From positions 1 through 20,446 of the IMG/VR virus record IMGVR_UViG_3300024261_000188: a stretch of 20,446 nt of DNA; one strand, written 5' to 3'. How positions within the stretch are numbered: the stretch's first letter is position 1; each line of letters starts with the position of its first letter. The position numbers and the translations under genes are program-made. The notes under the pieces were generated by a model that saw nothing but the letters and a program-made list of their open reading frames with translations, was not told the origin of the DNA and ran no database searches. This stretch comes from a virus. Positions 1-18,645 of the stretch are shown in pieces.

Positions 1-84
1 ATTAGAGGAAAGATATATTTACAGCCGACTAAGTCAGTAGAATTTATTTCACTTGATTTTGTTGTAACTAATTCAATTGATTAA
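1..84 (+). CDS. Contractile tail sheath protein, C-terminal end only (gp18-like)
   Basis: Only the last 27 codons and a TAA stop are present; the gene enters from the left edge. The residues include IYLQPTKSVEFISLDFV, which closely follow the C-terminal strand of T4 gp18-type sheath proteins (T4 has a similar 'P-x-R-S-I-N-Y-I-T-L-N-F-V' stretch). In contractile tails this strand takes part in the subunit-to-subunit mesh that holds sheath rings together. A tail tube gene follows 36 bases downstream, giving the usual sheath-then-tube order of T4 genes 18 and 19. The identification rests on a short segment and on context, but both agree. This would be the canonical sheath of the phage, distinct from the much larger sheath-like gene after the tube gene. 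Confidence 0.8.
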   Translation: MRGKIYLQPTKSVEFISLDFVVTNSID

Positions 85-94
85 TATATAGATA

Positions 95-102
95 TATAAA
101 GA
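95..102 (+). promoter_or_regulatory. Possible T4-type late promoter (TATAAAGA)
   Basis: TATAAAGA matches seven of eight bases of the T4 late promoter element TATAAATA and lies 18 bases before the tube gene start, in the gap after the first sheath gene. The tube is needed in many copies, so a local late promoter is plausible. In DNA this AT-rich such matches arise often by chance, so this is only a candidate. Confidence 0.25.
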
Positions 103-120
103 ATTTTAGGAGAATATAAA

Positions 121-609
121 ATGGCAGAGACACTTTCAGTTACTGAAATGATTCCGAACAAGTTTGAGCCAAAAAGAAAGAATCGCTGGATTTTCGCAAT
201 TGAGGGTATTGATGCCTTTATCCTTAAAACTGCTGCACGTCCTTCTTTCACAATTGGTGAGCAAGAGATTAACTTTATTAACGCAAAAAGATATATTGCA
301 GGCAAAATGACGTTTGATCAGTTGAATGTTACATTGCATGATCCGATTGCACCTAGTGGAGCTCAACAAGTTATGGAATGGATTCGTACACATTATGAAT
401 CAGTTAGCGGTAGAGCAGGATATGCAGATTTCTATAAAAGAGACTGCCAGCTTAAGATGCTTGATCCCGTAGGAACAGTTGTAGAGTTATGGGATATCAA
501 AGGCGCGTTTCTAACTAATGCAAACTTTGGAGATTTATCTTATGATGGCGAAGAGCCAACAGATATCTCATTAACTATTAGATTTGATAATTGTGTTCTT
601 CAATATTAA
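121..609 (+). CDS. Tail tube protein (T4 gp19 family)
   Basis: This 162-aa protein would form the stacked hexameric rings of the inner tail tube through which DNA passes. Its length is almost that of T4 gp19 (163 aa). It shows the family layout: a basic start followed by a strand (KNRWIFAIEGID), the central INAKRYIAGKMTFDQLNVTL segment that corresponds to 'N-R-K-I-N-V-A-G-D-R-T-F-D-D-W-T-V-T-V' of T4, a mid-protein helix (QQVMEWIRTHYESV), and C-terminal strands (VVELWDIKGAFLTNANFGDL, then SLTIRFDNCVLQY). The start is supported by AGGAG at 108-112, eight bases before ATG. It sits between two sheath-type genes. No internal oddities are seen. Codon use is like that of its neighbours. Confidence 0.93.
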   Translation: MAETLSVTEMIPNKFEPKRKNRWIFAIEGIDAFILKTAARPSFTIGEQEINFINAKRYIAGKMTFDQLNVTLHDPIAPSGAQQVMEWIRTHYESVSGRAGYADFYKRDCQLKMLDPVGTVVELWDIKGAFLTNANFGDLSYDGEEPTDISLTIRFDNCVLQY

Positions 610-617
610 TTTAAAAC

Positions 618-670
618 TTCTGTTTTTGTTCTTGTTAAATAAATAATATTATATAAGAGCAAAAACAGGA
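618..670 (+). promoter_or_regulatory. Long hairpin that covers the SD of the second sheath gene
   Basis: CTGTTTTTGTTCTT (620-633) pairs with AAGAGCAAAAACAG (655-668): 14 base pairs with a single G-U wobble. Pairing extends outward to 618/670 (U-G, then U-A) and inward to 635/653, leaving an AT-only loop of about 17 bases. The right arm contains AGGA (667-670), the SD of the gene starting at 677, so the folded RNA would hide that ribosome binding site. There is no T-run after the right arm, so it does not look like an intrinsic terminator. A role in translational control or in RNA stability at the tube gene 3' end is inferred. Confidence 0.7.
638..645 (+). promoter_or_regulatory. Possible late promoter in the hairpin loop (AATAAATA)
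   Basis: AATAAATA differs from the T4 late element TATAAATA only at the first base. It lies in the loop of the 618-670 hairpin. Transcripts starting from it would begin near 650, lack the left arm, and so leave the SD at 667-670 free. Chance matches are common in such AT-rich DNA; the position rather than the match is what makes it worth listing. Confidence 0.25.
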
Positions 671-676
671 TCTTAA

Positions 677-3600
677 ATGTCTAACGTAAATAAGAGTCAA
701 ATAAGCGCTAATATTAGCACACCTTTAGTATTCAAAGAAGAAGAAAGTGTATCTTTATTAGATGAAACGCTTTGTGTTGTTGGGACTGCAAAGGAAGGTC
801 CCGCATTTATCCCGCAGCAAATTAGAAGTTTTGAAAGTAACGACAGTATACTGAATTCATGGGAAAATATTTTTGGTAACTTTTCGACACAAAACAAAGA
901 TCCCGGTCCAATATCAGCTAGGGTTTGGCTTGAAAACGGAAAAAATCAAGTAAGTTATATAAGAGTATTAGGAACATCTGATGATGGGAATGCTGGCTTC
1001 GAAGCAGGTGATCTTGTCTTGAGTGGTAGTGTTACTAACGGTGTTAAGGGAGAAAGTAAATTTACTAATACTGGGGGAGATAAAGGTAAAGTTCATTTTT
1101 TAACAACAGTAGTAAAATCAATTGTAGAACCTGAGTATATATCGCCTTATTCAGACTATCTTGGGCAACTAAACATCTCTGAAGACGAAGTAGGAGTAAT
1201 TACAGATTGTATAATGTGCACACACGGTTCATCATTATATTTGCAAAATGATGAAAATGATAATATAAATATTATTTCTAAGAAAAAAGAGCTTTCAACA
1301 AAAAGCAACATAGCTGCACCTTTTCTTGGAAATATATTCACTACAATTGAAAATCCTATGATATACGTTCAAGGACTTAAAGACTCATCAAAAAATGTAA
1401 TTAATATGTACAATGATGCAAGTTTAAAGCAAGGATTTGAAGCTGATCTTTTAAATACAGACTTAGAGTGGATACTTGATAAAGGACACTTTGTATACAC
1501 GAAGTTTCGAAACTTAAATAGTTTTAATAAAACAATTGTTCCAGCTGACACAAAATATTTGATGCTTACTAGCAAAGTTAATATAGACTTAGAGTATGAA
1601 GACTTTAAATCTTCATTCAAAAAAGCAAGAACACCTTGGATAGTTTCACAGCCAATTAATAGAGGTAATATTTCTGACGAAGAAAAGACTGACATTCATA
1701 AGTATTGCAAGAAGTTATTTAGATTTCATACATACAGTGATGGTGATGCTGGTAACAACATAAGAATTAGAATTATGCCTAGAAGAAAAGGCGACATCGA
1801 CAGTTTAAATGATTCTGAACGTTGGTCTATTTTTGATATATCTATTTATATTATTGAAAATAATGACTTTGTATTGAAAGAACAGTTTAGGAATATTACT
1901 TTAAATCCGAATGATAAAAATTATATATGTAATATAATAGGAACTGAGCATGATGTTTATAACGCAGCAACAAAAAAAGTAGAAAATATAGGAAGTTATA
2001 GAAAAACAAACAATATTGTTTTTGTTGAAGTTGTAGAAGAAATTGAAGATGAAGTTATAAACACAGATTTAATGCCATGCGGCTTTATGCCTTATCCTAG
2101 GGTTAATGTAAGTAGTAACCTTTTAAATACACCTGCTTCATTTACAAGCCCGATAATACAAAATCCTCTTAATTACGTAGGAAATCATATGATCCTAGGA
2201 AAATCTAAAGAAGAATTAAACTTTGGGGATAGATACTGGGGTGTTTTATTTGATAACGTCAAAAAAACAAAGTTTGAAAACAAAAAAGTGTCGGGACAAA
2301 ATTATAATTTTTTACTTGATGTAGTTAAAGATAGTGTAAAAACAAAATTTAAAAATGTTTTAGATTACACTAGATTTTTTAAAAATGATTATGAAGATGT
2401 TAGCAAAAACATTTGGGTAGAAGACTTAAAAGACAATGACACTGATTTTTTTAATTCATTTTTTCATTTAGAAAAAATTCTTTATGCTTATAACGAAAGT
2501 TCTATTAAAGACATGTGGGATTTTTCTTTTTATCAAAGAGATGGCCGTAATATAAGTAACGTAAACAAAGTTGATTCTTCAATATACAAGTATGTCAATA
2601 TAGATGATATAACAAAGTCAAACACACTATCAGACTCGCAACATTCAAAGTTTCTTTGTTTTGACTTAATGACATTCGGTGGCTTTGACGGATTTAACAT
2701 TCTTGACAATCATAAAAGAGAAAATCATGGTATTTCAATAATCAGAGAGTTATCTGGTGAAGAAGCCAATAAAACTAAGGGTCAGATATACGAATCTTAC
2801 GATTTAGCAGCAGATATTATTATAGATGACGAAAATTATCGCTGTGACGTTTTTTGCATGCCAGGTATATCTCATAATGAATTGTTGAAAAAAGTATTAC
2901 AGAAAGCAAACGATAAACAGTTTACTTTTATTGCTGATGTGCCTGAAAGAGTTTATAATGATAATTCTATAAACGGGAATTATAATAGTATTGACTCTTA
3001 TTTGATTGACCCAATATTTTTTAAAAATAAAGACAATATTCCTAGTCAATATTTAGAAGAAAGAGAAGACCTGAATTACTTGACATCACTTGCGTCTGAT
3101 AAGACAATTGATGACTTTGTTGGACAAAATTACTATTCAGAATATGGTTTATTTGTTTTAAATAGCATAAAGTCGTCTAGCGTCAATGAAGAATTTTTAG
3201 TACCCTCGAGCATCCTGGCTATAAATTCAATTTCATCTAAAGATGTTCAAGAGCCTATAGACAGCGGAGAATTAGTATACCCAGATTTTATATCATTTAA
3301 TACTGTAATTAATAAGAGTTATATTTACAATAATAATAGATTCGATAGTTTAATTGAGAAAGTCAAAAAACATGATATTACTATTAATCCTGTAGGTATT
3401 ATGACTGCAGACAGAAAATTAAAATTACTTTCTGGAAATACGACAGCTAATAATAATAAAAGTGTTATGAAGTCATATCATAATGTTAGAATAAAACAAC
3501 TAATATCTAGAGAATTAGAGGACTTTTTAACAAGGGCTCCAATATTTCAAGGCAATAGTTTACTATTCTCTAATAATAGTAAGAACTCATCTTTCTTCAA

Positions 3601-3877
3601 TATAAAGACAGCTTTGTTAGTTTCTTTAGAAAATATACTGCAGAAATTTGTAGATGAAAAAATAATCAAAACATTTTCAGTCTATGTAGACATAGCTGAT
3701 TTAAATAGAAGTTCTAATTACAATTATATAAACAATATAGTTCATGGAGAAATTAGTTTTTCTTTATTTGATATAGGTCCTGACAATTTTGTTTCTTTAG
3801 ATATAAATAAGATTTTAAATAACATAAAACAGTTTACGTCAACTAATAATATTAATATAATTAATAATACTATATAG
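677..3877 (+). CDS. Second, very large contractile sheath-like protein
   Basis: This 1066-aa protein has sheath features in four places. Residues 1-110 follow the sheath N-terminus: VVGTAKEGPAFIPQQI, then a segment ending QVSYIRVLGTSDDG. Residues about 345-430 look like a sheath core domain: SDGDAGNNIRIRIMP and later FRNITLNPNDKNYICNIIGT. Residues about 705-760 fit the conserved core strand and helix (CDVFCMPGISHNELL, then FTFIADVPERV). Residues about 930-1050 fit the C-terminal domain, with an 'N-x-R-I-K-x-L-I' helix and final strands HGEISFSLFDIGPDNFVSLD. T4 gp18 is 659 aa, so some 400 residues are extra, mostly Asn/Lys-rich stretches around 120-340 and 480-700. The AGGA SD is six bases before ATG and inside a hairpin. 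Its role (alternate sheath, baseplate-proximal ring or sheath adaptor) is inferred; the tail is clearly the setting. Confidence 0.82.
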   Translation: MSNVNKSQISANISTPLVFKEEESVSLLDETLCVVGTAKEGPAFIPQQIRSFESNDSILNSWENIFGNFSTQNKDPGPISARVWLENGKNQVSYIRVLGTSDDGNAGFEAGDLVLSGSVTNGVKGESKFTNTGGDKGKVHFLTTVVKSIVEPEYISPYSDYLGQLNISEDEVGVITDCIMCTHGSSLYLQNDENDNINIISKKKELSTKSNIAAPFLGNIFTTIENPMIYVQGLKDSSKNVINMYNDASLKQGFEADLLNTDLEWILDKGHFVYTKFRNLNSFNKTIVPADTKYLMLTSKVNIDLEYEDFKSSFKKARTPWIVSQPINRGNISDEEKTDIHKYCKKLFRFHTYSDGDAGNNIRIRIMPRRKGDIDSLNDSERWSIFDISIYIIENNDFVLKEQFRNITLNPNDKNYICNIIGTEHDVYNAATKKVENIGSYRKTNNIVFVEVVEEIEDEVINTDLMPCGFMPYPRVNVSSNLLNTPASFTSPIIQNPLNYVGNHMILGKSKEELNFGDRYWGVLFDNVKKTKFENKKVSGQNYNFLLDVVKDSVKTKFKNVLDYTRFFKNDYEDVSKNIWVEDLKDNDTDFFNSFFHLEKILYAYNESSIKDMWDFSFYQRDGRNISNVNKVDSSIYKYVNIDDITKSNTLSDSQHSKFLCFDLMTFGGFDGFNILDNHKRENHGISIIRELSGEEANKTKGQIYESYDLAADIIIDDENYRCDVFCMPGISHNELLKKVLQKANDKQFTFIADVPERVYNDNSINGNYNSIDSYLIDPIFFKNKDNIPSQYLEEREDLNYLTSLASDKTIDDFVGQNYYSEYGLFVLNSIKSSSVNEEFLVPSSILAINSISSKDVQEPIDSGELVYPDFISFNTVINKSYIYNNNRFDSLIEKVKKHDITINPVGIMTADRKLKLLSGNTTANNNKSVMKSYHNVRIKQLISRELEDFLTRAPIFQGNSLLFSNNSKNSSFFNIKTALLVSLENILQKFVDEKIIKTFSVYVDIADLNRSSNYNYINNIVHGEISFSLFDIGPDNFVSLDINKILNNIKQFTSTNNINIINNTI

Positions 3878-3895
3878 TACGGAGAATTATAATAT

Positions 3896-4738
3896 ATGAA
3901 CAATCTAGATGAGCCAATTAATCCTAATCAAGTAGCTGAATCGAGTCCTATCAAGAAATCAAATGTAATGATAGATGACTTTGGAATTGACATACCTGTG
4001 GAGACAGTTCCTTTACCTTCTAGAGGTATTATATACAAAACTGAGGGTGCTTTGTTTGGTCAAGAAACTTTAGATATTAAACCTATGACAGCTAAGGAAG
4101 AAGATATTCTAACTTCTAGAGCATACATTAAAAATGGATCTGTTATAAGCAAGCTAATAAGTAGTTGTCTAACAAATAAAAATATAAATCCAGACGATTT
4201 AATTTCTGGAGACAGAAATGCGCTATTAATTGCGTTAAGAATTACAGGGTACGGCTCTGACTATGAGTTAGAGATAACTTGTCCAGAATGTTCAAAATCA
4301 AGCAAGAATTCTTTTGACTTGTCAACTTTGTCAATTAAAAGACTTGTAGTTGATCCTGTAGAAATAGGCGTAAATGAGTTTGAAGTAGAATTACCAGTAA
4401 CTAAGAAAACTGTAAAGGTTAGATTTTTAACAGGTAAAGATGAAAGAGAAATGATGACTATCTCAGAAAGAAAAAAGAAAAGTGGTCTCAATACAGAAAG
4501 CGCAATTACTGATAGACTTAATAGATCAATTTTAGCTGTTGGTGATATCACAGACAAAAATAAAATTTCTATGTTTGTAAGGAATATGCCTGTTAGAGAC
4601 TCTCTTTCATTAAGGAAATTCCTTGATAATCATGAGCCCGGTGTAGATATGAAGTCACATATGACTTGTACACATTGTCATGAGGAAAGTGAGGTTGACT
4701 TACCAATCGGCGCTTCATTTTTTTGGCCTGACGCCTGA
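3896..4738 (+). CDS. Baseplate hub assembly protein, T4 gp26-like, with zinc-ribbon cysteines
   Basis: This 280-aa protein fits the T4 baseplate protein family that includes gp26. Diagnostic stretches are LPSRGIIYKTEG (40-51), KPMTAKEEDILTSRAYIKNG (62-81), GDRNALLIALRITGYGSDYE (105-124), and a C-terminus FFWPDA. Two cysteine pairs, C129/C132 (CPEC) and C258/C261 (CTHC), can form one zinc-binding site, as in other family members. The protein is expected to act in the cytoplasm in assembly of the central baseplate, before tape measure and tube are built. GGAG (3881-3884) lies upstream of ATG with a rather long spacer of about 11 bases. Its last 59 bases overlap the next small gene in the +1 frame, and the overlap contains a run of seven T. 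Confidence 0.85.
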   Translation: MNNLDEPINPNQVAESSPIKKSNVMIDDFGIDIPVETVPLPSRGIIYKTEGALFGQETLDIKPMTAKEEDILTSRAYIKNGSVISKLISSCLTNKNINPDDLISGDRNALLIALRITGYGSDYELEITCPECSKSSKNSFDLSTLSIKRLVVDPVEIGVNEFEVELPVTKKTVKVRFLTGKDEREMMTISERKKKSGLNTESAITDRLNRSILAVGDITDKNKISMFVRNMPVRDSLSLRKFLDNHEPGVDMKSHMTCTHCHEESEVDLPIGASFFWPDA

Positions 4739-4978: not shown

Positions 4979-7900
4979 ATGTCAAATACAGACAAATTAA
5001 TTGCTGCAATAGGTGAATTTACAAAAGCAATGGAAAACATCAAAGTAAGCAGTAGCTCTGAGAACACTGATGTTTTGTCTGGGCACACAGCTGTTATAAA
5101 AGAACAAACAGAAAAGATAATAGAATTAACAGCTGCGATGAAAGAAAAAAGTTCTGAAGATCAAGAAAGTCAAAAATCAAAAGACGCAGCAGATGAAAAA
5201 TCTTCCAAACAAACAGAAAAGCTTATAGGGATGCAAAAAGAACTGGCTAATATATGGCCTAAGTTCGGACCAAAACTTATAAACGGATTAAATAAATTCA
5301 CATCAGCATTAACTTCTATAAAGTCCTCTTTTGGAAATCTTACTAAGAAGTTTAAAGGCATGTTCAGCGGAGGAGCATTTGGGAAAAAGCTAGGATCAGT
5401 AGGTAGTCTTATGGGTAAGGGCTTAAAAGGAGCATTCGGCGGTATAGGAAAACTTGGCAAAAGCATTTCAGGTATAGGGAAAGGTATATTAGGCGGTGTT
5501 AAAAGCTTTTACGGGAAAATTAAAACGGGTCTTAACGTTTTTTTACTTTCTAATCCAATTGGAATGGCAGTTAAAAAAATAGGCGGATTTATTTTTAGTA
5601 AAACAGTAGGCAAGATGTTAGGCGCGACAGCAAAAATTTTCAAAACAGGGATTACATATGGCGCAAAATTTGCCAAGGTAATGGTAGGATTACCCCTGCA
5701 AATAGTAGGAGCTGTTGCTAAAATAGGACATTCCTTCAGAAGAAACGTTGTTGAAGTTATTGGTGGAGCTGTTGAAGGAGTTAAAGACTTTGTGGATGTC
5801 AATGACGGTCTAGGAAAATCAATTAAAGACATGTCAACATCTTCAGCAATGTCTTTAGACAAATTTAGTGACCCTACGAGTGATTTAGTCAAAATGTTTG
5901 GAGACGGACCAAGCGGTTTAGCAAATGCTTTACAAGCAGCTGGGACAGCAATGCAAGATATGGGTCAATTTGCTGATGTTGCAGGAAGGTCAATAATAAA
6001 GAATGAAAAAAACTTTTTGCATTATACAAAAGCAACAAGAAGTTTAGGTATGGCCAGCGATGATATTGGGTATATTACTGCAGAAGCTGTAAAAAATGGA
6101 GAAAGCATATATGCAGCGTTAGATAAGGTTGTAATCGCTTCAGACGCAACTTCAAAACAATTTGGTGTAGATAGAAAGAAACTTTCTAAAAACTTTTTTG
6201 TTTTAAGAAAAGATATAACAAATTTTGGTCATTTGTCAAACAAAGAGTTGATGGAAACTTCTGCAAAGTTAACACAGATGGGTGTATCAATGGCAGAAGC
6301 AGCTGCTGTATTTAATAAGATGGATACGTTTGAATCAGCTGCGCAAACATCAGCAATGTTGTCACAAACTTTTGGAATGAATCTAGATGCTTTGAAGCTT
6401 TTGAGAGCTGAAAAGCCTGAAGAGATTATCGAGCAATTTAGTAAAGCAATGCAATCAACTGGAAGATCTTTTGATGATTTAAATCGACACGAAAAGTCTT
6501 TGATGGCATCTCACACAGGATTGTCTGCTGAATCTTTAAAAATGACAATGAATTATAGAAACTTAGGGATGTCATATAAAGATATACAAAAGAAAATGAA
6601 AGAAGACGATCCTACACAACAGCAAATAAAAAATCTTAAGATGATGAGTGGTTCTCTAAAAGAAATAAAAAAGACACTTGGCGGCGAGAATGTCTTTAAA
6701 AGGTTTGCAGACGGTGTTTTGGAAACTGTCAAAGCGAATTCTGGGTTGTCAAAAACATTCCTTACAGTTTCAAAAAGATTTGAAGACTTTTTCGTTGCAG
6801 GTCTAAAGATTTCTGACAAGGCAAAAGGCTCGTTTGAAAAAGCTTTTTCTCCTTTTAAAACTGTTTTAGAACAAATGGTTGGTGACGGAACTGATGGTAA
6901 TAAAGGGTTGTTAGATGCTAGCAAGTTTAAAGATTCTTTTGAAGAATTTGCTGGAACTTATGGTGATTACCTTGGTAGAGCATTTAAAGGAGACAGTCTT
7001 AGCAATCTTCAAGTAGAAATACGTAATAGTCTTAAATCTGCTTTTGACTTTAAAAATTTAAATCAAGGGAATACTTTTGTCGGGAAGCTATTCAAGTCAA
7101 GTGGTGAACTCATTGGTCAAATATTGAAAGGATTTGCAGCATTTGGTCCAGGTTTAATTGATATAACTTTCGATGCTATGGATAGTTTAATAGACTTTTT
7201 AGTAAACTATAAAGATAGTCCTAAAGCAAACGGGTTGTTGTATAATAATAGTATAAAAGGAATGCTCTCAAATTTACTGGGATTAAATGAAGATGATCAA
7301 ACAGCTATTTTGGGTACCTTTGGTCATCTAATTGATAGAGTCATATCCTCTACAGGCCCTTTAATGCGATTATATGCTTGGATTAATGTTAAGTTTGCAG
7401 AACTTATAAAGGATGCCATGTCTGCAGTTATCAACGCTGCTGAAGAAGGGTTTAAGAATTCGCCGATTGGATCATTTATTTATAGCTTTAACTTTGGTTC
7501 TAATAAATATAATTTCGAGCAAGGACAAAAAGGAGGCAAATCTTTAAGTCTATCAAGCCTTAACAAAGAGTCGCTAGGAAAACTTCATAATAGAGAAAAT
7601 TACGAAGCCTTTGAGGTAGATCAAATAGGAAAAATATATTCAATGCTAGAGAGCGAAGCAAAAAAACAAAAATTTGATACTTTAAAAGTAAATAAATTAC
7701 AAAAAATAATGAATCAAATTCAAAGTGCCAAAGGAGAAACAGGATGGGATCTTGATGATGATGATTTTGTTAAAAGTATTGCAAGTCAGGTTGCTAAATA
7801 TCGAGGTATTACTTTAGACATTGATAAAGCAAATGGCATCGTTCAGAATGCGCAAGGTAAACTGTTAGGACCGGGAGGCTTGGCAACATTAAAAGCAACA

Positions 7901-8230
7901 CCTGACGGGCTTCAAGTTACTCAGCTTGCGCCTGGCGATAATTTGGTGGCAGCTAAGTCAGGTGAAATAAGTTATGGAGGTAATGCTGCAAGTGGATTCC
8001 AAAGCGTGTCAAACATTTCAGCACAGCAAAATGTAGGACAAACATCAATGCAGGGTCCATCTGAGTTAAAGATTTGTCTTCAAGTTGATGGTAATACATT
8101 GACTGAAGTTTGTTTAGATAATGATATAATTAGAAAAGCGACGCAAGTAAAAAATGGAAGAGCAACGTTAGGTGATGGAATAGTTGTTGATGCAGCAGGA
8201 AGTCGTGTACAGAGCTCTAACCTTCGATAA
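4979..8230 (+). CDS. Tape measure protein
   Basis: At 1083 aa this is the likely tail-length ruler, packed inside the tube and released at injection. Evidence is its place after the gp26-like and small assembly genes, its size, and its composition. It has a polar helical N-terminus (1-95), a Gly-rich run of hydrophobic 'G-x-x-G-K' steps (about 120-185, e.g. MGKGLKGAFGGIGKLGKSIS), and hydrophobic helices to about 250. A long helical Ala/Lys/Met-rich middle follows. The beta-looking C-terminus (LKICLQVDGNTLTEVCLD, about 1025-1042) resembles the ends of other tape measures. With the usual rule of about 0.15 nm per residue the tail would be up to about 160 nm, longer than the T4 tail (gp29, 590 aa). 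No lysozyme or peptidase motif was seen. AGGAG lies just upstream of ATG. Confidence 0.85.
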   Translation: MSNTDKLIAAIGEFTKAMENIKVSSSSENTDVLSGHTAVIKEQTEKIIELTAAMKEKSSEDQESQKSKDAADEKSSKQTEKLIGMQKELANIWPKFGPKLINGLNKFTSALTSIKSSFGNLTKKFKGMFSGGAFGKKLGSVGSLMGKGLKGAFGGIGKLGKSISGIGKGILGGVKSFYGKIKTGLNVFLLSNPIGMAVKKIGGFIFSKTVGKMLGATAKIFKTGITYGAKFAKVMVGLPLQIVGAVAKIGHSFRRNVVEVIGGAVEGVKDFVDVNDGLGKSIKDMSTSSAMSLDKFSDPTSDLVKMFGDGPSGLANALQAAGTAMQDMGQFADVAGRSIIKNEKNFLHYTKATRSLGMASDDIGYITAEAVKNGESIYAALDKVVIASDATSKQFGVDRKKLSKNFFVLRKDITNFGHLSNKELMETSAKLTQMGVSMAEAAAVFNKMDTFESAAQTSAMLSQTFGMNLDALKLLRAEKPEEIIEQFSKAMQSTGRSFDDLNRHEKSLMASHTGLSAESLKMTMNYRNLGMSYKDIQKKMKEDDPTQQQIKNLKMMSGSLKEIKKTLGGENVFKRFADGVLETVKANSGLSKTFLTVSKRFEDFFVAGLKISDKAKGSFEKAFSPFKTVLEQMVGDGTDGNKGLLDASKFKDSFEEFAGTYGDYLGRAFKGDSLSNLQVEIRNSLKSAFDFKNLNQGNTFVGKLFKSSGELIGQILKGFAAFGPGLIDITFDAMDSLIDFLVNYKDSPKANGLLYNNSIKGMLSNLLGLNEDDQTAILGTFGHLIDRVISSTGPLMRLYAWINVKFAELIKDAMSAVINAAEEGFKNSPIGSFIYSFNFGSNKYNFEQGQKGGKSLSLSSLNKESLGKLHNRENYEAFEVDQIGKIYSMLESEAKKQKFDTLKVNKLQKIMNQIQSAKGETGWDLDDDDFVKSIASQVAKYRGITLDIDKANGIVQNAQGKLLGPGGLATLKATPDGLQVTQLAPGDNLVAAKSGEISYGGNAASGFQSVSNISAQQNVGQTSMQGPSELKICLQVDGNTLTEVCLDNDIIRKATQVKNGRATLGDGIVVDAAGSRVQSSNLR

Positions 8231-11025: not shown

Positions 11026-11307
11026 ATGGCAATATCTAGATTTGTAAGTATAAGAGGAAAAGAGTTAAACATATCAGGACTAATTTATAGAGCTGTAGTA
11101 AATGGCGAGATTGATGTAGACGTAAGAATATCTGAAGAAGGTAAACGTTTAGATCACTATGCACATGAATATTACGGAGATGCAGGAAATTGGTGGGTAA
11201 TTGCAGCTGCTAGTGGTATTGGTTGGTGGATGCAAATACCTGCTGGAACTTACTTGTTAATACCTACAAGTTTAGCGGAAATAGAAAGTCTTAAAGAGAG
11301 TTTATAA
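11026..11307 (+). CDS. LysM-like baseplate wedge protein (T4 gp53-like)
   Basis: This 93-aa protein has the small LysM-like pattern seen in phage baseplate proteins such as T4 gp53. RLDHYAHEYYGDAGNWWVIA (41-60) gives the first helix with the 'Y-Y-G-D' turn and the 'W-W-x-I-A' helix. GIGWWMQIPAGTYLLIPTS (64-82) ends in the typical 'I-P-x-G-T-x-L-x-I-P' strand. In gp53 and related proteins this fold joins wedge arms or attaches to tube and hub rather than binding cell wall. T4 gp53 is 196 aa, so this is a short version that keeps mainly the LysM domain. Its stop overlaps the start of the hub gene by one base (TAATG), implying translational coupling. The upstream SD (AGAGA) is weak. Confidence 0.8.
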   Translation: MAISRFVSIRGKELNISGLIYRAVVNGEIDVDVRISEEGKRLDHYAHEYYGDAGNWWVIAAASGIGWWMQIPAGTYLLIPTSLAEIESLKESL

Positions 11308-14300
11308 TGGCTAAAAATTCAATACCGAAGAAGTCAGAGATTGATAAGGTAAATGATAGAATAGTTAAAACAAACTATAAAAAGGCACAAAAAGCGCTAT
11401 CAAACTCTAGCTTTCACGGATACGTCCCATCAGCATCTGAAGATGAAATATTAAAGCTTTCTTTAACACCAACACTTGAAGCGACTAAAATAAAAAACGT
11501 TGCTAGATTTCTAAAAACAATTTCAGATATAATGCAGTCTATGACTACAAAAGGGTTTACTACCTTTGAAATAGTATCGTTTATTGCGTCAGAGATAAAT
11601 AAGTTTGGCGGGGATAAAGGAAAAATAATTGATTTCTTAGAATCTTCATATACAATAATACACTCAGACTACAGCAATGATTTGTCTAAAAAGTATTTAA
11701 ACAATGTAAGAAGAATTTTATTTAATCATGCCAAAGAAGAAGATTTCGGAGCCTATACAGATATTGGTTATAGATTAATAGGTATTAATCCAAAAGTAAA
11801 CAGAGATATAAAAACATTGTGCATATCAAAAAATGCAAACATTGTAAATAAAATATCACAGGCAACAGTTTCACCTGTTATACCAAAAAAAATAAAGTCT
11901 ATATTTGATAGTTATTATAACAATATTAATATTAACAAAAATATAAAAAACCCAACTAAAAACAATCCTTCTTACTCTAGTATAATGATAACAAACCCAG
12001 ATGTCAAAGTAGGATCTAGAAACGCTATTGAACTGTCTACGTTTTTCAACTCAGTAAGTAATGTAGAATTCGATAGAGCGTATCCCTATTTTAATGCTGA
12101 ATTTATTATTCCTAACTATTCAAAGCAAGATGCTAATGCAATAATTAAGGCAGCTTCGATTAACCAGTTTATTCATGGAACAATAGACAGTAGTAAAACA
12201 ACACAAAATTATAAAAATCTTGAAGGCGGTAATGTAGAAAGAGAAAATTTAAACAAAGGTGAAAAAGTTATAAAGACAAACATGTCACTCTTTACGTCAC
12301 CACAAACTATGACTAATCTAGACGAAGATATTGGCCATAGTTCAAATAAAAGCAGAAAGTCTCTAAGACTCACTTCTGTAAAAGATTCTACACAACCTTT
12401 TATGACTTTAAAAAGTTTGTCAATTAATGTTTCACCTACTAAAGGTCTTATGTCTTTCAAGACTGGAAAATTAAGTTTGACTTTGCACGACAGAAGTAGA
12501 CTACCAGACATTGCGCCTTTTGTAAAACATGATTTGTTTGGCGCTTTTGGCGCTGAGATTGTTCTAGAATATGGTTGGTCTCATCTAGATGAAGAAAACC
12601 CTGAAGAAAATCCTTTGGGCGCATTTATTGGTAACTCAAGATCAAAAGAAGTTTACATGATAACAAATAGCAGTTTTTCTATGGATCAAACTGGTATGAT
12701 AAATATTGACCTATCTATTTCAATGAAGGGCGCAAGCTTATTAAAAAATACAGAAATAAGCTTTGTGTCTTCAAATCGAATTAAAGAAGCTTCTTTGAAA
12801 TCAATACTAACAACAATCACAAGCTGCAGAATGAGTCTAGGTCTAGAGTCAGAAGTGAGTATACATTCAAGATTTTCAAAAACAGACATATTAAACCCAG
12901 TTAAAACAATAACTTCTTCAGTCGCAAAAGAAATAATTGCTTTTAGAATGAATAGTTTTTTTCTTACACATAAAAATATCACATCAAACTTAAGCGTAAA
13001 AAAGCTTGATGATGATAATGGTAAACAAAGATATTTAGTTGAGGTTAATGATGATAACACGTTAAGAGATAAACAAGATTTATTCTTAAAACTAATTTTT
13101 GGAAGTAAACTAAATGATATTAATAGTGATGAAGAAAGGACTATCTCTTCCGATGAAGATGAAGAAACCGTAAGATCTCTTTTAAATCAGATTTTAATAT
13201 CATTTAGCGAGCTTCATAAAGTTGCTGAAACGTTGTTGCAACAAGATACTCAAGAAGAAGATAATGAAGCTGCTATACTAGAAACAATTGTCGGAGGTAT
13301 AGACTTTGTAGATCCTTACTACCCAGTTGATAAAGGGTTTTATGAAAGCATAAGTGAACATGCATCTTTTGTCTCTTTGGGCTCAATTGTCAGCTCTTTG
13401 ATTCAAACACATGTCGTAAATAAGACACCATCCGATTTTGATGAAGTACAAACAATATTTTACTCTTCAAATCAATTCGCTGCTGGCATGAGATTTAAAA
13501 ACTTGGCAACGTTTCTTGTGCCCAAAGAAGAGTTAAAATCTTTTATAAAAAAAGAAATAAAAAAAGAAATAACAGACAATAGAGGTAAAACTACAAAAGG
13601 CGTAACAGTTGTGACTATAGAGTCAATTATTTCACAAATTATAAACAGATTTATTATTAATAAAAACAACGTAAACTATGGTCTTACTGATCTTTACAAA
13701 AACGAAAATAATTCAGTAGTTACTGTACACAAAGATCAAGATGTTCATGAAAAAAGTCTTAAACGTAAATTACATAAAATATATTATCCGAATTTTAAAG
13801 GAAATATAACTTCAAGTACAAATAATTGTACTTTCAAAGTTCCTACAATTAAATTTTCCTTTGACTGTGTATCTTCTTCTAACAAACACAAAGAAAACTC
13901 TAAGTCTATTTTGAGAATATCGATATATGACGAAAACGATTCTCCATACGACACAGTGTCAAGTGTGTTGGAAAGTCTATATACAGATGACTTTACAAAA
14001 AAAGTTAGCTCAATAGCGAAAATAAATTCAAAATATCAAAGTTTAGGATCAAAAGCGTTATACAAGAAAAAAATGGATAATGAATTTGAAGCTTTAATTG
14101 CTGAAAAATACATCATTACAAAAGGCAACAACTATGAATTCAATCCACTTGCAAAAGTATCATCTATTAACAAACAAAGCGGAATCAAAAATTTCTACAA
14201 AAGTCTGTTCCCGTCAATGACTTTCGGCACACAACACACAGCAATGCTTTCAGCAAATGTATCTACTGTTAATGATAATAAGCTTGCAACTGTCTATATA

Positions 14301-17300
14301 ACAAGAGCTGATAGAAATAATCAAAGTGAAATAAACTCCAGAGTAAAAACTAACTTGCCGCTCAGAGTCATGCCAACGCAAGCTTCTATAGAGACTTTTG
14401 GATGCCCTTGGATAAACTTCGGTCAATTTATTTTCTTAGACTTTGATACCGGTACGACAATAGATAATAAATACGCAGTCACAGGTATCACACATAATTT
14501 CTCTCCAGGTAAATTTTCTACTAGCCTTACACTTTCATACGGTGATGTATACGGTCAATATGAGTCTGCCGCTGATATGATAGAATCGATAATACCTTCT
14601 TTAAGCGTGCAAAAAGAATCTAGTATTAATTTAAATAATAATGAAAGTAATGAAAACAATTCTAAAGATATTATTATTTACGGCGCCAAATATAGAGAAA
14701 ATGATTTTTATAAACCTTCACACAGTCCATCTAATGCTGCGCTGGTAAGATCTAATAGAAAACAAGGTGTCATTGAGTATGTAAATCCTATTAACAGCAA
14801 GTTTTCAAATAGCCCGCTCATGTTAATGTTCTTTGATAATACATACGCAAAAAAAGCAATCAAGTCTGAACATTATAAAGAAACACTATATAAAGATTAT
14901 AAAACTTCACCCAATCCAATAATTAGCGCATTCAACAGTATATTCAAGGCAGATATGTATCATCAATTAGATTTACATGCAGAAGCGCTGCCCAAAGATA
15001 ATAAACTACCATTTGTATTTAATACTTTAAATAAAGCTAGACAAGAATTTAAAGAAGATGGGAGTTATAAGACGAAAAAACTTTTAGTCTCGCAAAAATC
15101 ACAGACTTTGAAAGTTAGCATAAAAAACCCAGGCATTATGTTTGGAGAAAAGTCCGAGAAAATTAATTTAAATAAAATATCTCCTAACTTTATACTGCAA
15201 TCTCAAAATGTGTGGATAGAAAAAATAAAGAAAGAAGATCAAGGGAGCTCACCTAATACCGAAAATTTCAAAGGATCAAACAGATTGTTTATTGATCTTC
15301 ATGAACACATAAATAAAGTTTACAAACTGCAGGATGATAACTTTTTTACACTAAAGACTAGAATGTTGACGCTTAAAGATTTCTTAAGTGAAGACTTTGC
15401 TGACAATCAATACGAGAAAGTTGTAACCAGAGTTGTTGGCTTCAAGTTTGGGCGTCAAGTAGAGCACAAATCTGGAACCATCAACAAAAAATTCGCAGAT
15501 GCAGAAGATTTTCTCAGGGTTAAAAAACCAAAAACAACGAAGAGTAAAATTCATGGTTATGGCAAAGATCACATAGTTACATATGAATTAGTAGAACAAT
15601 CGCCAGTTAGAAAGAAGATAAAAGAAATAAACGAAAATCTCAAAAATGGAGACATTTTAGAAATTAATGTTGGAAAGGCAAAAAAAATCCTCGACAATGA
15701 TTATAGGCTTTCATATATAAAATCATACAATATTTTCAAAACTTTCGATGTATCTTTTGAAACTAATATTGAAGTAAAAATTAACTTAACAAAAGCAGCT
15801 ATAAATAACAACGAACTTCTGAGTCAAGAAGGAATAATGTTCTATAATGCTACGCTTAATCAAGATATCTTGAAAAGAGTATATGACGAAACTGCTATCA
15901 CAACTATTAAAGTTTTGCATGGCGGGACGCCTCAAGCAAAATTGTTAATAATTGTAACAGAATATGATATAATTGATGGCTTTGTAGATTACAATAAAAA
16001 AGGGACGGGAAACATTAACTTAGTTAATCCGCTATTTACTATTGCAACAATATTTGACAAGAACTTCTTTGGTAAAGACCCAAAAATGCCTGGGTATCAA
16101 TTTAATTCTGGAAAACCTGAAAATCATGATGGCGTTAATGACGCTATGCCGTCATCAAAAACAACATCATACGAAGTAAAGCTTTCTTCGTTCTATGAAT
16201 ACATTACAGAAAAGATTGCCAAGTTTATTAGCGCTGATGGTGATAATAAAAAAGAATTTACCTTGTATAAACATAATTTTGATAAAAAAATTCTTGGACA
16301 ACGCGTAGCAAATGAAAAATCAAAAGACATTAAAAGCGACATTATAAAAATAAAACATAGTGTTAATTACGAACCTGCTGTCAATCAGTTTTTTAGTCGT
16401 TTGAAAAGTAGTATATCGAGTCTAGACAGCAAAGACTTACATTCCCTCTCGGTGGAGCCAATTAGTTGGAATGAAGAAATTAGTGATCCATCAAAAGTCA
16501 AGTCAGTGCCGGCAATAGTTACAGCGTCAACAGAAGAGTATAGAGGTATTAAAAAGAAGAATCTTCCGCCGGCGCAAAAGAAGAATCTTAACTTGATGGT
16601 GATGGAGGTGTGGGTGCCGCCTGCAAACGTAAACACAGGGACAATGACTTCTGCAGATGGTTTTAATGTTTCAGAATCGTTTAATTATAAAAAGCTCGAA
16701 GAATCGTTTAAAACTGCGCATAAAGACATCATCAGCGCAAAGGCTGAGTATGACAAACTATTCCCGCTAGATAACTCTAAAACTTTTGTAGACATAAGAT
16801 CAGTTAAACAAGGAACACCGCAAGCAGGAAAGTTTTTAGATGTAAAAATTAGTGATCTGGCGATACAACATTCTACACCTGATTCTGCAGTGTTAGATAA
16901 AGAAACAAAAGTTCAAATTGAATACGCCAAATCCATAGTAAATAACATAAAAACAGTCGGAGAAACTCAACAGAGAAGAATAAAAATACAGCCAGCGTTG
17001 TTTTATTTGTTAAAATATGCAGCTTCGTTAACTTTAAAAAACAAGCCTGGAGCATTTGATAAAATTTATATAAATTCAGGAGGAGATATTCCTTTGTATT
17101 TAGTAACTTTTAGAAACAATTCTTTAACAATAAGACATGATAGTGGCTATGGAGCCGACGTAATGATATACAAGGGTAATAAACCATTACAGTTAACAGA
17201 AAACGCTGAGAATGACGCAAATAAAGATGCTGTTAATCAAATAATATGGTTTTTCCTTAAAACGTGTAAAGAGTTAGGTTCAACTGGTATTGGAGCAGAT

Positions 17301-17564
17301 TTTAATTATGATAAGGGAAAAGCTTTCCATGTAGATATAGCGTCTAAAAACAAAGACTTAAGCTCAGGTAACTACAGTAATAAAGAAATATCTATAAAAT
17401 ACGGTGGCAAACAAGAAGTTCTCTCTATAGCAAAATTAATAAAAAAAGTAAAGATAACCAAGAACAGTCGATATTGGGGGAAGGACAATGAAGGTAAGCA
17501 CACAGCGCATGGAGCGCCTGCGTCCTTAAAAGATATTTTTCAAAACAAAAAAGTAAAAAAATAA
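11307..17564 (+). CDS. Giant baseplate hub protein with C-terminal M15-type peptidase domain
   Basis: 2085 aa. Residues about 370-480 and 1000-1095 carry hub-like segments. The second includes RVMPTQASIETFGCPWINFG, FLDFDTGTT, YAVTGITHNFSPGKF and YGDVYGQYESAADM, the gp27/VgrG-type pattern found in phage hub proteins. Residues about 1100-1880 are unassigned. Residues about 1890-2020 form an M15-like peptidase: SGGD near 1923, RHDSGYGAD with H1944 and D1951 ('H-x6-D'), GSTGIGADF, and FHVDIA with H2008 and D2010. H1944, D1951 and H2008 can bind zinc; D2002 or D2010 could serve as the acid/base. The hub tip would cut peptide cross-links of the cell wall during injection, taking the place of the lysozyme of T4 gp5. 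A basic tail (2025-2085) follows. Start is fixed by the TAATG overlap with the wedge gene. Confidence 0.85.
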   Translation: MAKNSIPKKSEIDKVNDRIVKTNYKKAQKALSNSSFHGYVPSASEDEILKLSLTPTLEATKIKNVARFLKTISDIMQSMTTKGFTTFEIVSFIASEINKFGGDKGKIIDFLESSYTIIHSDYSNDLSKKYLNNVRRILFNHAKEEDFGAYTDIGYRLIGINPKVNRDIKTLCISKNANIVNKISQATVSPVIPKKIKSIFDSYYNNININKNIKNPTKNNPSYSSIMITNPDVKVGSRNAIELSTFFNSVSNVEFDRAYPYFNAEFIIPNYSKQDANAIIKAASINQFIHGTIDSSKTTQNYKNLEGGNVERENLNKGEKVIKTNMSLFTSPQTMTNLDEDIGHSSNKSRKSLRLTSVKDSTQPFMTLKSLSINVSPTKGLMSFKTGKLSLTLHDRSRLPDIAPFVKHDLFGAFGAEIVLEYGWSHLDEENPEENPLGAFIGNSRSKEVYMITNSSFSMDQTGMINIDLSISMKGASLLKNTEISFVSSNRIKEASLKSILTTITSCRMSLGLESEVSIHSRFSKTDILNPVKTITSSVAKEIIAFRMNSFFLTHKNITSNLSVKKLDDDNGKQRYLVEVNDDNTLRDKQDLFLKLIFGSKLNDINSDEERTISSDEDEETVRSLLNQILISFSELHKVAETLLQQDTQEEDNEAAILETIVGGIDFVDPYYPVDKGFYESISEHASFVSLGSIVSSLIQTHVVNKTPSDFDEVQTIFYSSNQFAAGMRFKNLATFLVPKEELKSFIKKEIKKEITDNRGKTTKGVTVVTIESIISQIINRFIINKNNVNYGLTDLYKNENNSVVTVHKDQDVHEKSLKRKLHKIYYPNFKGNITSSTNNCTFKVPTIKFSFDCVSSSNKHKENSKSILRISIYDENDSPYDTVSSVLESLYTDDFTKKVSSIAKINSKYQSLGSKALYKKKMDNEFEALIAEKYIITKGNNYEFNPLAKVSSINKQSGIKNFYKSLFPSMTFGTQHTAMLSANVSTVNDNKLATVYITRADRNNQSEINSRVKTNLPLRVMPTQASIETFGCPWINFGQFIFLDFDTGTTIDNKYAVTGITHNFSPGKFSTSLTLSYGDVYGQYESAADMIESIIPSLSVQKESSINLNNNESNENNSKDIIIYGAKYRENDFYKPSHSPSNAALVRSNRKQGVIEYVNPINSKFSNSPLMLMFFDNTYAKKAIKSEHYKETLYKDYKTSPNPIISAFNSIFKADMYHQLDLHAEALPKDNKLPFVFNTLNKARQEFKEDGSYKTKKLLVSQKSQTLKVSIKNPGIMFGEKSEKINLNKISPNFILQSQNVWIEKIKKEDQGSSPNTENFKGSNRLFIDLHEHINKVYKLQDDNFFTLKTRMLTLKDFLSEDFADNQYEKVVTRVVGFKFGRQVEHKSGTINKKFADAEDFLRVKKPKTTKSKIHGYGKDHIVTYELVEQSPVRKKIKEINENLKNGDILEINVGKAKKILDNDYRLSYIKSYNIFKTFDVSFETNIEVKINLTKAAINNNELLSQEGIMFYNATLNQDILKRVYDETAITTIKVLHGGTPQAKLLIIVTEYDIIDGFVDYNKKGTGNINLVNPLFTIATIFDKNFFGKDPKMPGYQFNSGKPENHDGVNDAMPSSKTTSYEVKLSSFYEYITEKIAKFISADGDNKKEFTLYKHNFDKKILGQRVANEKSKDIKSDIIKIKHSVNYEPAVNQFFSRLKSSISSLDSKDLHSLSVEPISWNEEISDPSKVKSVPAIVTASTEEYRGIKKKNLPPAQKKNLNLMVMEVWVPPANVNTGTMTSADGFNVSESFNYKKLEESFKTAHKDIISAKAEYDKLFPLDNSKTFVDIRSVKQGTPQAGKFLDVKISDLAIQHSTPDSAVLDKETKVQIEYAKSIVNNIKTVGETQQRRIKIQPALFYLLKYAASLTLKNKPGAFDKIYINSGGDIPLYLVTFRNNSLTIRHDSGYGADVMIYKGNKPLQLTENAENDANKDAVNQIIWFFLKTCKELGSTGIGADFNYDKGKAFHVDIASKNKDLSSGNYSNKEISIKYGGKQEVLSIAKLIKKVKITKNSRYWGKDNEGKHTAHGAPASLKDIFQNKKVKK

Positions 17565-17601: not shown

Positions 17602-18645
17602 ATGAATATAGATTATTACAAGTTATATGACATAGACTATTATGAAGATTTTAGTAGATTTATAAAATTTTTTGATGACATTAAAGATGATAAATTTGAC
17701 ATAGAAGAAGTATTGCCAGACCATTTAATAGAAAGATTTAAAAGACATCTTGAAGAAAAAAAATCATACTTAGAAAGTAGAGACGATAATTTTAAATATT
17801 TGAGTTTGTATGAATTGCATAATTTTTTATTTGAAAGTCTAGAGGCAGCGAGGGTAGATCTTTTAGCGTTTAAAGCTTTTATAGAAATTGAGAAGAATGA
17901 AAGCATTATTTCTAATTTGAAAAGTTTTAAAATGAAAAACAGTTTTTGTAAAAAAGTTATATATGAAAGGTGTAACAATGTAACAGGTCGTTTAGTTGTG
18001 AAAGAAGGACCAAGAATATTAACTCTACCCTCAAGGTATAGATCAATATTAAAGAGTAGATTTGATGAAGGTGAAGTCTATAGCATAGACTTTTCAGCAT
18101 TGGAGCCAAGAATTACAGCAAAGCTTTCTGGCGTTGAAACTAAAAAGGATATATATGAAGAAATATTGAACTTATTAAGCTTTAATGCAGATCGTTCTAT
18201 TATTAAAAAAGCTGTTATTTCAAGTATATACGGCGCTAATTATACATCTTTAGAGGGTTTGTCTTTAGAGCGAAGCAAAGAAATATTTGATCAAATAAAT
18301 AAATACTTTGATTTTAAAAAAATACTTGAAATTTCTTCTAATATTGATGAGATAGGTATTAGAAGAAATTATTTTGGAAGACCTTTATGGAATCTTTCAG
18401 AAAAAAGAGAAAACGTTTTAATAAACAACTACATACAATCTACAGCAGTAGATATATCACTAACATACTTTACTAATTTGATTAAAAAAATAAACTTTGC
18501 AAAACCACTTTTTATTTTACACGATGCACTTATCATTGATCTAGACCAAAAAGATTATGATGTTGTAAGAAATGAAGTTGATAGTGGTTATAATGATTCA
18601 AAGTTAGGTTATTTTCCTCTTAAACTTGAAAAATTTAATATATAA
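17602..18645 (+). CDS. Minimal family-A DNA polymerase (polymerase domain only)
   Basis: 347 aa with the ordered motifs of the PolA fold. These are TGRLVVKEGPRILTL (128-142, like the TGR motif of Klenow), motif A SIDFSALEPR with D163 and E168, motif B R198-x3-K202 ending IYG (209-211), YFGRPLW (257-263), NYIQSTAVDI (276-285), and motif C LHDA with D308. Both metal-binding Asp are present. Departures from Klenow: motif C is HDA instead of HDE, and Ile206 replaces the motif B aromatic residue (F762, Tyr in T7) that governs sugar selection. No 3'-5' or 5'-3' exonuclease is present, and the first 120 residues are too short for a full thumb plus exonuclease. ATG 17602 has no SD; no other Met occurs before residue 111. 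It probably makes DNA in replication or repair; the gene lies oddly among tail genes. Confidence 0.85.
   Translation: MNIDYYKLYDIDYYEDFSRFIKFFDDIKDDKFDIEEVLPDHLIERFKRHLEEKKSYLESRDDNFKYLSLYELHNFLFESLEAARVDLLAFKAFIEIEKNESIISNLKSFKMKNSFCKKVIYERCNNVTGRLVVKEGPRILTLPSRYRSILKSRFDEGEVYSIDFSALEPRITAKLSGVETKKDIYEEILNLLSFNADRSIIKKAVISSIYGANYTSLEGLSLERSKEIFDQINKYFDFKKILEISSNIDEIGIRRNYFGRPLWNLSEKRENVLINNYIQSTAVDISLTYFTNLIKKINFAKPLFILHDALIIDLDQKDYDVVRNEVDSGYNDSKLGYFPLKLEKFNI

Follow-up and report, generated by a model that had tools for sequence, protein, structure and literature searches.

Three tail sheath paralogues around a single tail tube gene, the third without the conserved sheath signatures

In this work we have analysed the tail genes in a window of 20,446 nt, the whole stretch of DNA under study, which covers positions 1 to 20,446 of the IMG/VR virus record IMGVR_UViG_3300024261_000188. 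Sheath paralogues of 1015, 1127 and 1066 aa are named S1, S2 and S3, and the following features lie at the locus.

1 to 84, + strand: 3' end (27 codons and stop) of S2, a giant gp18-type sheath gene, assigned by contig overlap and sheath matches
121 to 609, + strand: tail tube protein (gp19-like), 162 aa; phrog_4542 E 1e-28, Pfam Phage_T4_gp19 E 2.5e-4
618 to 670, + strand: RNA hairpin in the spacer between the tube gene and S3; MFE -21.5 kcal/mol, z -7.0
677 to 3877, + strand: S3, a divergent third sheath paralogue, 1066 aa, assigned by predicted fold, alignment with S2 and tree
3896 to 4738, + strand: baseplate hub protein (T4_baseplate family), the next gene after S3; PF12322 E 9e-21, phrog_150 E 4e-25
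4979 to 8230, + strand: probable tape measure protein, 1083 aa, assigned by position and a weak phrog_167 match (E 0.059)

The tape measure candidate has a homologous ORF at the equivalent position in the long loci, and in Flavobacterium phage immuto this position is held by an annotated tape measure. Further along the window there is a DNA polymerase A domain (17602-18645).

The partial ORF which opens the window reads IRGKIYLQPTKSVEFISLDFVVTNSID and continues in two other contigs. Contig L001 (IMG/VR 3300004280_000445) and the window overlap over 3876 bp, with 4 mismatches, and L001 yields 895 S2 codons. A perfect overlap of 157 bp joins L001 to contig L211 (3300024339_000315), which adds 232 codons and brings S2 to 1127 aa over L211, L001 and the window. 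L211 also carries S1, a further sheath gene, upstream of S2. The joined order is a head-tail adaptor (phrog_211, E 1.6e-9), ORFs of 218 aa and 404 aa, S1, S2, tube, S3, hub, a small ORF, the probable tape measure and further baseplate genes. Because of these overlaps, and because the order S1-S2-tube-S3-hub is also present on single contigs (e.g. L015, L019, L032, L063, L074), the three paralogues can be placed in the same virus: three sheath paralogues lie around one tail tube gene. The original prediction had two sheath genes flanking the tube, the second one giant. Several paralogues do surround the tube, but there are three, with S1 outside the window, and S3 does not stand out by its size, as S1 and S2 are comparably long. 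The roughly 400 extra residues noted for S3 are there relative to T4 gp18 (659 aa), but S2 is just as large and they are not special to S3.

That the first 27 codons end a gp18-type sheath was borne out through L001. The 895 codons of S2 match PHROG 23 (tail sheath) at E 4e-46, Pfam Phage_sheath_1C above its cut-off and the T4 gp18 chains in the PDB at E 4e-25. In S1 both Pfam sheath domains exceed their cut-offs and PHROG 23 matches as well, so by these profiles the phage has more than one canonical sheath paralogue. The sheath signatures are common in both proteins: WxxPxG, RxNxRR and the C-terminal arm were found in 100, 95 and 75 of 104 S1 sequences and in 118, 120 and 101 of 126 S2 sequences, and single-sheath and other tandem loci (n=14) have 13, 14 and 12, respectively. 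Since S1 and S2 retain the conserved core and arm motifs and are highly conserved, they are probably the bulk sheath subunits and co-assembled. The structure predicted for S2 (the L032 copy) was a poor model (pLDDT 56) and was left out of the comparisons.

S3 taken alone has no significant sequence match in Pfam, PHROG or PDB. Its relationship to the sheath proteins appears when it is compared with S2: BLASTP aligns residues 256-755 at E 6e-33 and a profile-profile alignment with hhalign covers the whole length (Prob 100, E 3.9e-90, 897 columns). An AlphaFold2 model built from 22 S3 sequences (pLDDT 79.2, pTM 0.80) gave 23 top Foldseek matches which were all tail sheaths, the best being phiKZ (E 1.2e-10) and T4 (E 6.3e-10). 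With the same model VIA ranked the KP1 sheath best (Z 22.4, 449 residues aligned), followed by sheath chains from phages and contractile injection systems. The original prediction of a sheath-type protein after the tube thus agrees with both the S2 alignment and the structure prediction, in which the sheath fold is present. As judged from the model, S3 keeps this fold and belongs to the gp18-like contractile sheath superfamily; the paralogue alignment and the predicted fold rule out a non-sheath protein. A large insertion domain decorating the sheath was also suggested, but the middle domains are common to S2 and S3 in both alignments. Is S3 closer to the trunk or to the baseplate paralogue of injection systems? 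The structural comparison does not separate the two, as Afp4 (Z 18.4) and Afp2 (Z 17.8) are tied and the baseplate-end paralogue is not preferred over the trunk one.

Although the fold seems to be retained, the signatures of the canonical sheaths are gone. WxxPxG, RxNxRR and the C-terminal arm motif (handshake strand) were each found in 0 of 43 S3 sequences. In place of the usual C-terminus, S3 ends in a different tail, modelled as a strand followed by a helix, with the last residues (1051-1066) at low confidence. The pattern of constraint is inverted as well. Over the same 66 locus pairs, the tube has a median identity of 84%. The S2 core follows with 79% and the S2 middle with 50%, and S3 reaches 39% in its middle and 29% in its core. 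In all 66 pairs S2 was better conserved in its core than in its middle, and in 62 of 66 S3 was less well conserved in its core; these pairs are not independent but their direction is uniform. A fold that is kept while core and arm conservation is lost is best read as a specialised subunit, and on these sequence patterns S3 is probably made in low copy number and is not a second bulk sheath. The amount of S3 could not be read from composition. In nearly every locus S3 is richer in N/K/I/F/Y than S2 and slightly higher in amino-acid cost, but the tube exceeds both in cost, and synonymous divergence, higher for S3 than for S2 in 88 of 126 pairs, separates the two weakly; amino-acid cost, GC3 and synonymous divergence are therefore not decisive for an expression class.

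A set of 193 loci, annotated with profiles of the three sheath types, the tube and the hub, forms a series with one, two (S1 and S2) or three sheath genes. The single sheath-tube-hub loci include the cultured phages Mel-JY01 and immuto. The order S1-S2-tube-hub was found in 45 loci and S1-S2-tube-S3-hub in 23 complete loci and about 45 cut by contig ends, a few of the three-sheath loci being the same contig counted twice. The counts also hold on long contigs: G001, G008, G010 and G011 (133-240 kb) have exactly three sheath genes, all in the tail cluster, and G014-G016 and G019 exactly two, with two-sheath contigs reaching 257 kb. The tree groups S1, S3 and the single sheaths into one clade each with support 100 (SH-aLRT only), and S2 is not firmly one clade. 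When the tree is rooted on the single sheaths, S1 splits from S2 and S3, and S3 has a single origin on a long stem. By this sequence phylogeny S3 arose through a duplication that groups with S2. Close S3 relatives are absent from the cultured phages in the collection, the sole match being the metagenomic LR756508 (484 kb; 31% over 160 residues). Bacterial genomes held only four distant relatives, in three Bacteroidales-type MAGs and one Mycoplasmatota MAG, and a host assignment from them was rejected.

The spacer between the tube gene and S3 deserves separate attention. The S3 Shine-Dalgarno sequence AGGA (667-670) sits in the 3' arm of the hairpin at 618-670. Hairpins with z<-3 occur in 45 of 63 tube-S3 spacers and in 25 of 41 tube-hub spacers of two-sheath phages, and in none of the S1-S2 (0/26), S2-tube (0/52) or S3-hub (0/21) spacers of S3-bearing loci. 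Of 56 loci, 37 had the S3 Shine-Dalgarno region paired (P>0.7); for the tube this was so in 0 of 46. Among 12 near relatives 5 of 18 stem pairs have changed on both sides. With or without S3, the hairpin stands where the sheath-tube block meets the genes behind it; as it follows the tube gene in two-sheath phages too, it did not arise for S3. In T4, genes e and soc are controlled by a hairpin which sequesters the ribosome-binding site, and the S3 spacer resembles them in that its hairpin also pairs this site. The loop holds AATAAATA, but words resembling TATAAATA are no commoner than in shuffled sequences and a T4-like late promoter (TATAAATA) before S3 is unsupported.

What could such a protein do in the tail? 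We see roughly even chances that S1 and S2 build the sheath and that S3, its ribosome-binding site sequestered by the hairpin, forms one or a few low-copy specialised rings, most likely a baseplate-proximal adaptor. The hairpin after the tube gene would hide the S3 ribosome-binding site and lower the amount of S3. The S3 ring would most likely join the sheath initiator (gp25-like) to the S1/S2 sheath at the baseplate, a placement that may be likened to Afp4/Pvc4-type paralogues, which apparently sit there in AFP and PVC. We infer the low copy number, the ring and the baseplate end, and our best guess for S3 is a terminal ring tied to that end. The sheath subunit of phage phiKp24 inserts its N- and C-terminal arms into the ring below (PMC9700779), and a ring with altered arms would therefore fit the bottom of the sheath, where it faces baseplate proteins. 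The gene order neck adaptor, S1, S2, tube, S3, hub follows the tail from its neck down to the baseplate, and S3 adjoins the hub. The PDB has Afp4 and Pvc4 chains in no entries other than 6rao/6rgl and 6j0n, two of which (6rao and 6j0n) are described as baseplate structures in their titles, and Afp2/Pvc2 chains are also in trunk or cap entries. Could S3 replace the gp25-like initiator or gp15? This was rejected: S3-bearing contigs encode a gp25-like initiator (PF04965) and also show a weak match to a gp15-like terminator, several matches to these families falling below the curated cut-off. As an initiator is encoded alongside it, S3 would be an added ring, not a substitute. There is no evident need for an extra ring beside initiator and terminator, and this counts against the baseplate-adaptor reading.

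Other roles can be considered. It may be that S3 lies outside the lattice, as a decoration or whisker protein or as a sheath assembly chaperone acting through its better conserved middle domains. Its invariant residues fall at 36-356 and the near-invariant ones mostly up to about 640, with almost none in the C-terminal core, and additional domains in known sheaths are located away from the tube (PMC9230969). A decoration would not need a core, however, and the predicted S3 structure retains the core fold in full, which makes this role unlikely. Slightly less likely is a specialised ring under the neck (cap-proximal), or one joining S1 and S2 segments. Lost bulk-lattice signatures are to be expected of any end ring and the exchanged C-terminus would suit such a position too; S3 adjoins the baseplate hub, and upstream of S1 there are a neck adaptor and a gp15-like gene, which are weak arguments for the baseplate end instead. 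Still less probable is a role for S3 as an ordinary third bulk subunit, in mixed or alternating rings with S1 and S2, for which its full-length homology, its sheath fold and the two-component sheath of Pseudomonas phage PaBG (PMC7412058) could be cited. The core and arm motifs are missing in 43 of 43 S3 sequences, the S3 core evolves far faster than the S2 core and the tube in the same genomes, and the S3 ribosome-binding site is sequestered. Because the lattice signatures are lost, it is also unlikely that the second kind of sheath ring proposed in the original prediction is a bulk ring made of S3. Fast core evolution might even suggest a decaying duplicate without function, but this is highly improbable and in practice refuted: S3 is under purifying selection, with dN/dS of 0.13-0.17 where divergence is moderate, its ORFs are intact (1013-1231 aa) where the locus holds the whole gene, and about 70 loci share one well-supported origin.

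Contractile tails are usually treated as having homopolymer sheaths. The widespread uncultured lineage described here, with its one-, two- and three-sheath members, is a natural evolutionary series in which to study how a sheath is attached to and triggered by the baseplate and which residues the lattice needs. In S3 one can see what the fold can do without once a paralogue leaves the bulk. More tentatively, we suggest that sheaths increased stepwise from one to two to three within a T4-type lineage and that the third may have become a dedicated low-copy adaptor ring at the baseplate which starts or triggers contraction, an independent counterpart of the AFP/PVC arrangement.

Sheaths with several paralogues are already known from PaBG and from AFP/PVC, and what is unusual here is their number, three in a phage. 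A phage with three sheath proteins was not described in the literature searched (open-licence papers). T4 gp18, the sheaths of Mel-JY01 and immuto and RaK2 gp041 have the fold in common with S1-S3, but each of these phages has one sheath gene; Microcystis phage Mel-JY01 and immuto also share the synteny sheath-tube-hub-tape measure. Great length is not confined to our paralogues, since the RaK2 sheath is a large multidomain protein of 888 aa (PMC3622015) and PHROG sheath profiles reach 1135 positions. The statement in the original prediction that phages usually need one sheath protein has published exceptions: some phage genomes have two sheath copies (PMC9230969), and in PaBG (Lupandier group) a gene duplication gave a two-component tail sheath of gp76 and gp213, which are 38% identical, about 58 kDa each and both visible as virion bands (PMC7412058). 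PaBG resembles our phage in having more than one sheath paralogue by duplication. In PaBG, however, there are two genes, far apart by number, whereas our phage has three around the tube, each of more than 1000 aa, with the signatures gone from the third. The uncultured LR756508.1 (484 kb) has two tandem 824-aa sheath genes upstream of the tube and no S3; these fall with the single-sheath group in the tree and therefore represent a separate duplication. Closest in number are AFP and PVC, with three sheath paralogues per system (Afp2-4, Pvc2-4; PMC12961389, PMC8894135), and the comparison with them made in the original prediction holds in that S1, S2 and S3 also lie in one tail cluster. AFP and PVC are headless, whereas our virus, with a head-tail adaptor and DNA polymerase genes nearby, is a true phage, and its giant multidomain sheaths have an independent origin inside a T4-type single-sheath lineage.

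Duplication of the sheath gene occurred more than once among the relatives compared here. On the locus L113, two S2-class ORFs of 858 and 966 aa represent a tandem duplication of the single sheath gene, and a separate tandem duplication of this kind is found in the uncultured 484-kb phage LR756508.1 (L004:14299-20259). In the tree, the tandem copies of both group with the sheaths of single-sheath phages, so there was more than one duplication event. The length of the second sheath paralogue, S2, varies between about 970 and 1790 aa (for example L019:7415-12415, L034:7204-11691 and L037:9500-12508), a spread caused by a hypervariable insert in the N-terminal half of the protein. In some copies (L034) this insert contains modular repeats with the pattern GHNG..I...G..TLTQ...G..GNT; the lengths of S1 and S3 are far less variable. 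The S1 or S2 ORF is broken into two on L084, L085, L107, L159 and L030, which may reflect a frameshift, an inserted element or a sequencing error.

Three further features of the window concern us here:

618-670, strong, covarying RNA hairpin downstream of the tail tube gene
11307-17564, 2085-aa protein
17602-18645, stand-alone DNA polymerase A domain (347 aa), directly behind the baseplate genes

The tube–S3 and tube–hub spacers of many loci carry this hairpin, in which the ribosome-binding site of the following gene is base-paired. It is present in both three-sheath and two-sheath phages; the remaining spacers of the tail cluster lack such a hairpin.

The 2085-aa protein gave no significant match in Pfam or PHROG. 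Judged by eye, its C-terminal sequence looks peptidase-like, and the gene at the equivalent position in the cultured Flavobacterium phage immuto is annotated as a carboxypeptidase. The polymerase ORF lacks an exonuclease part, and the related Rhodothermus phage RM378 likewise has a short DNA polymerase gene.
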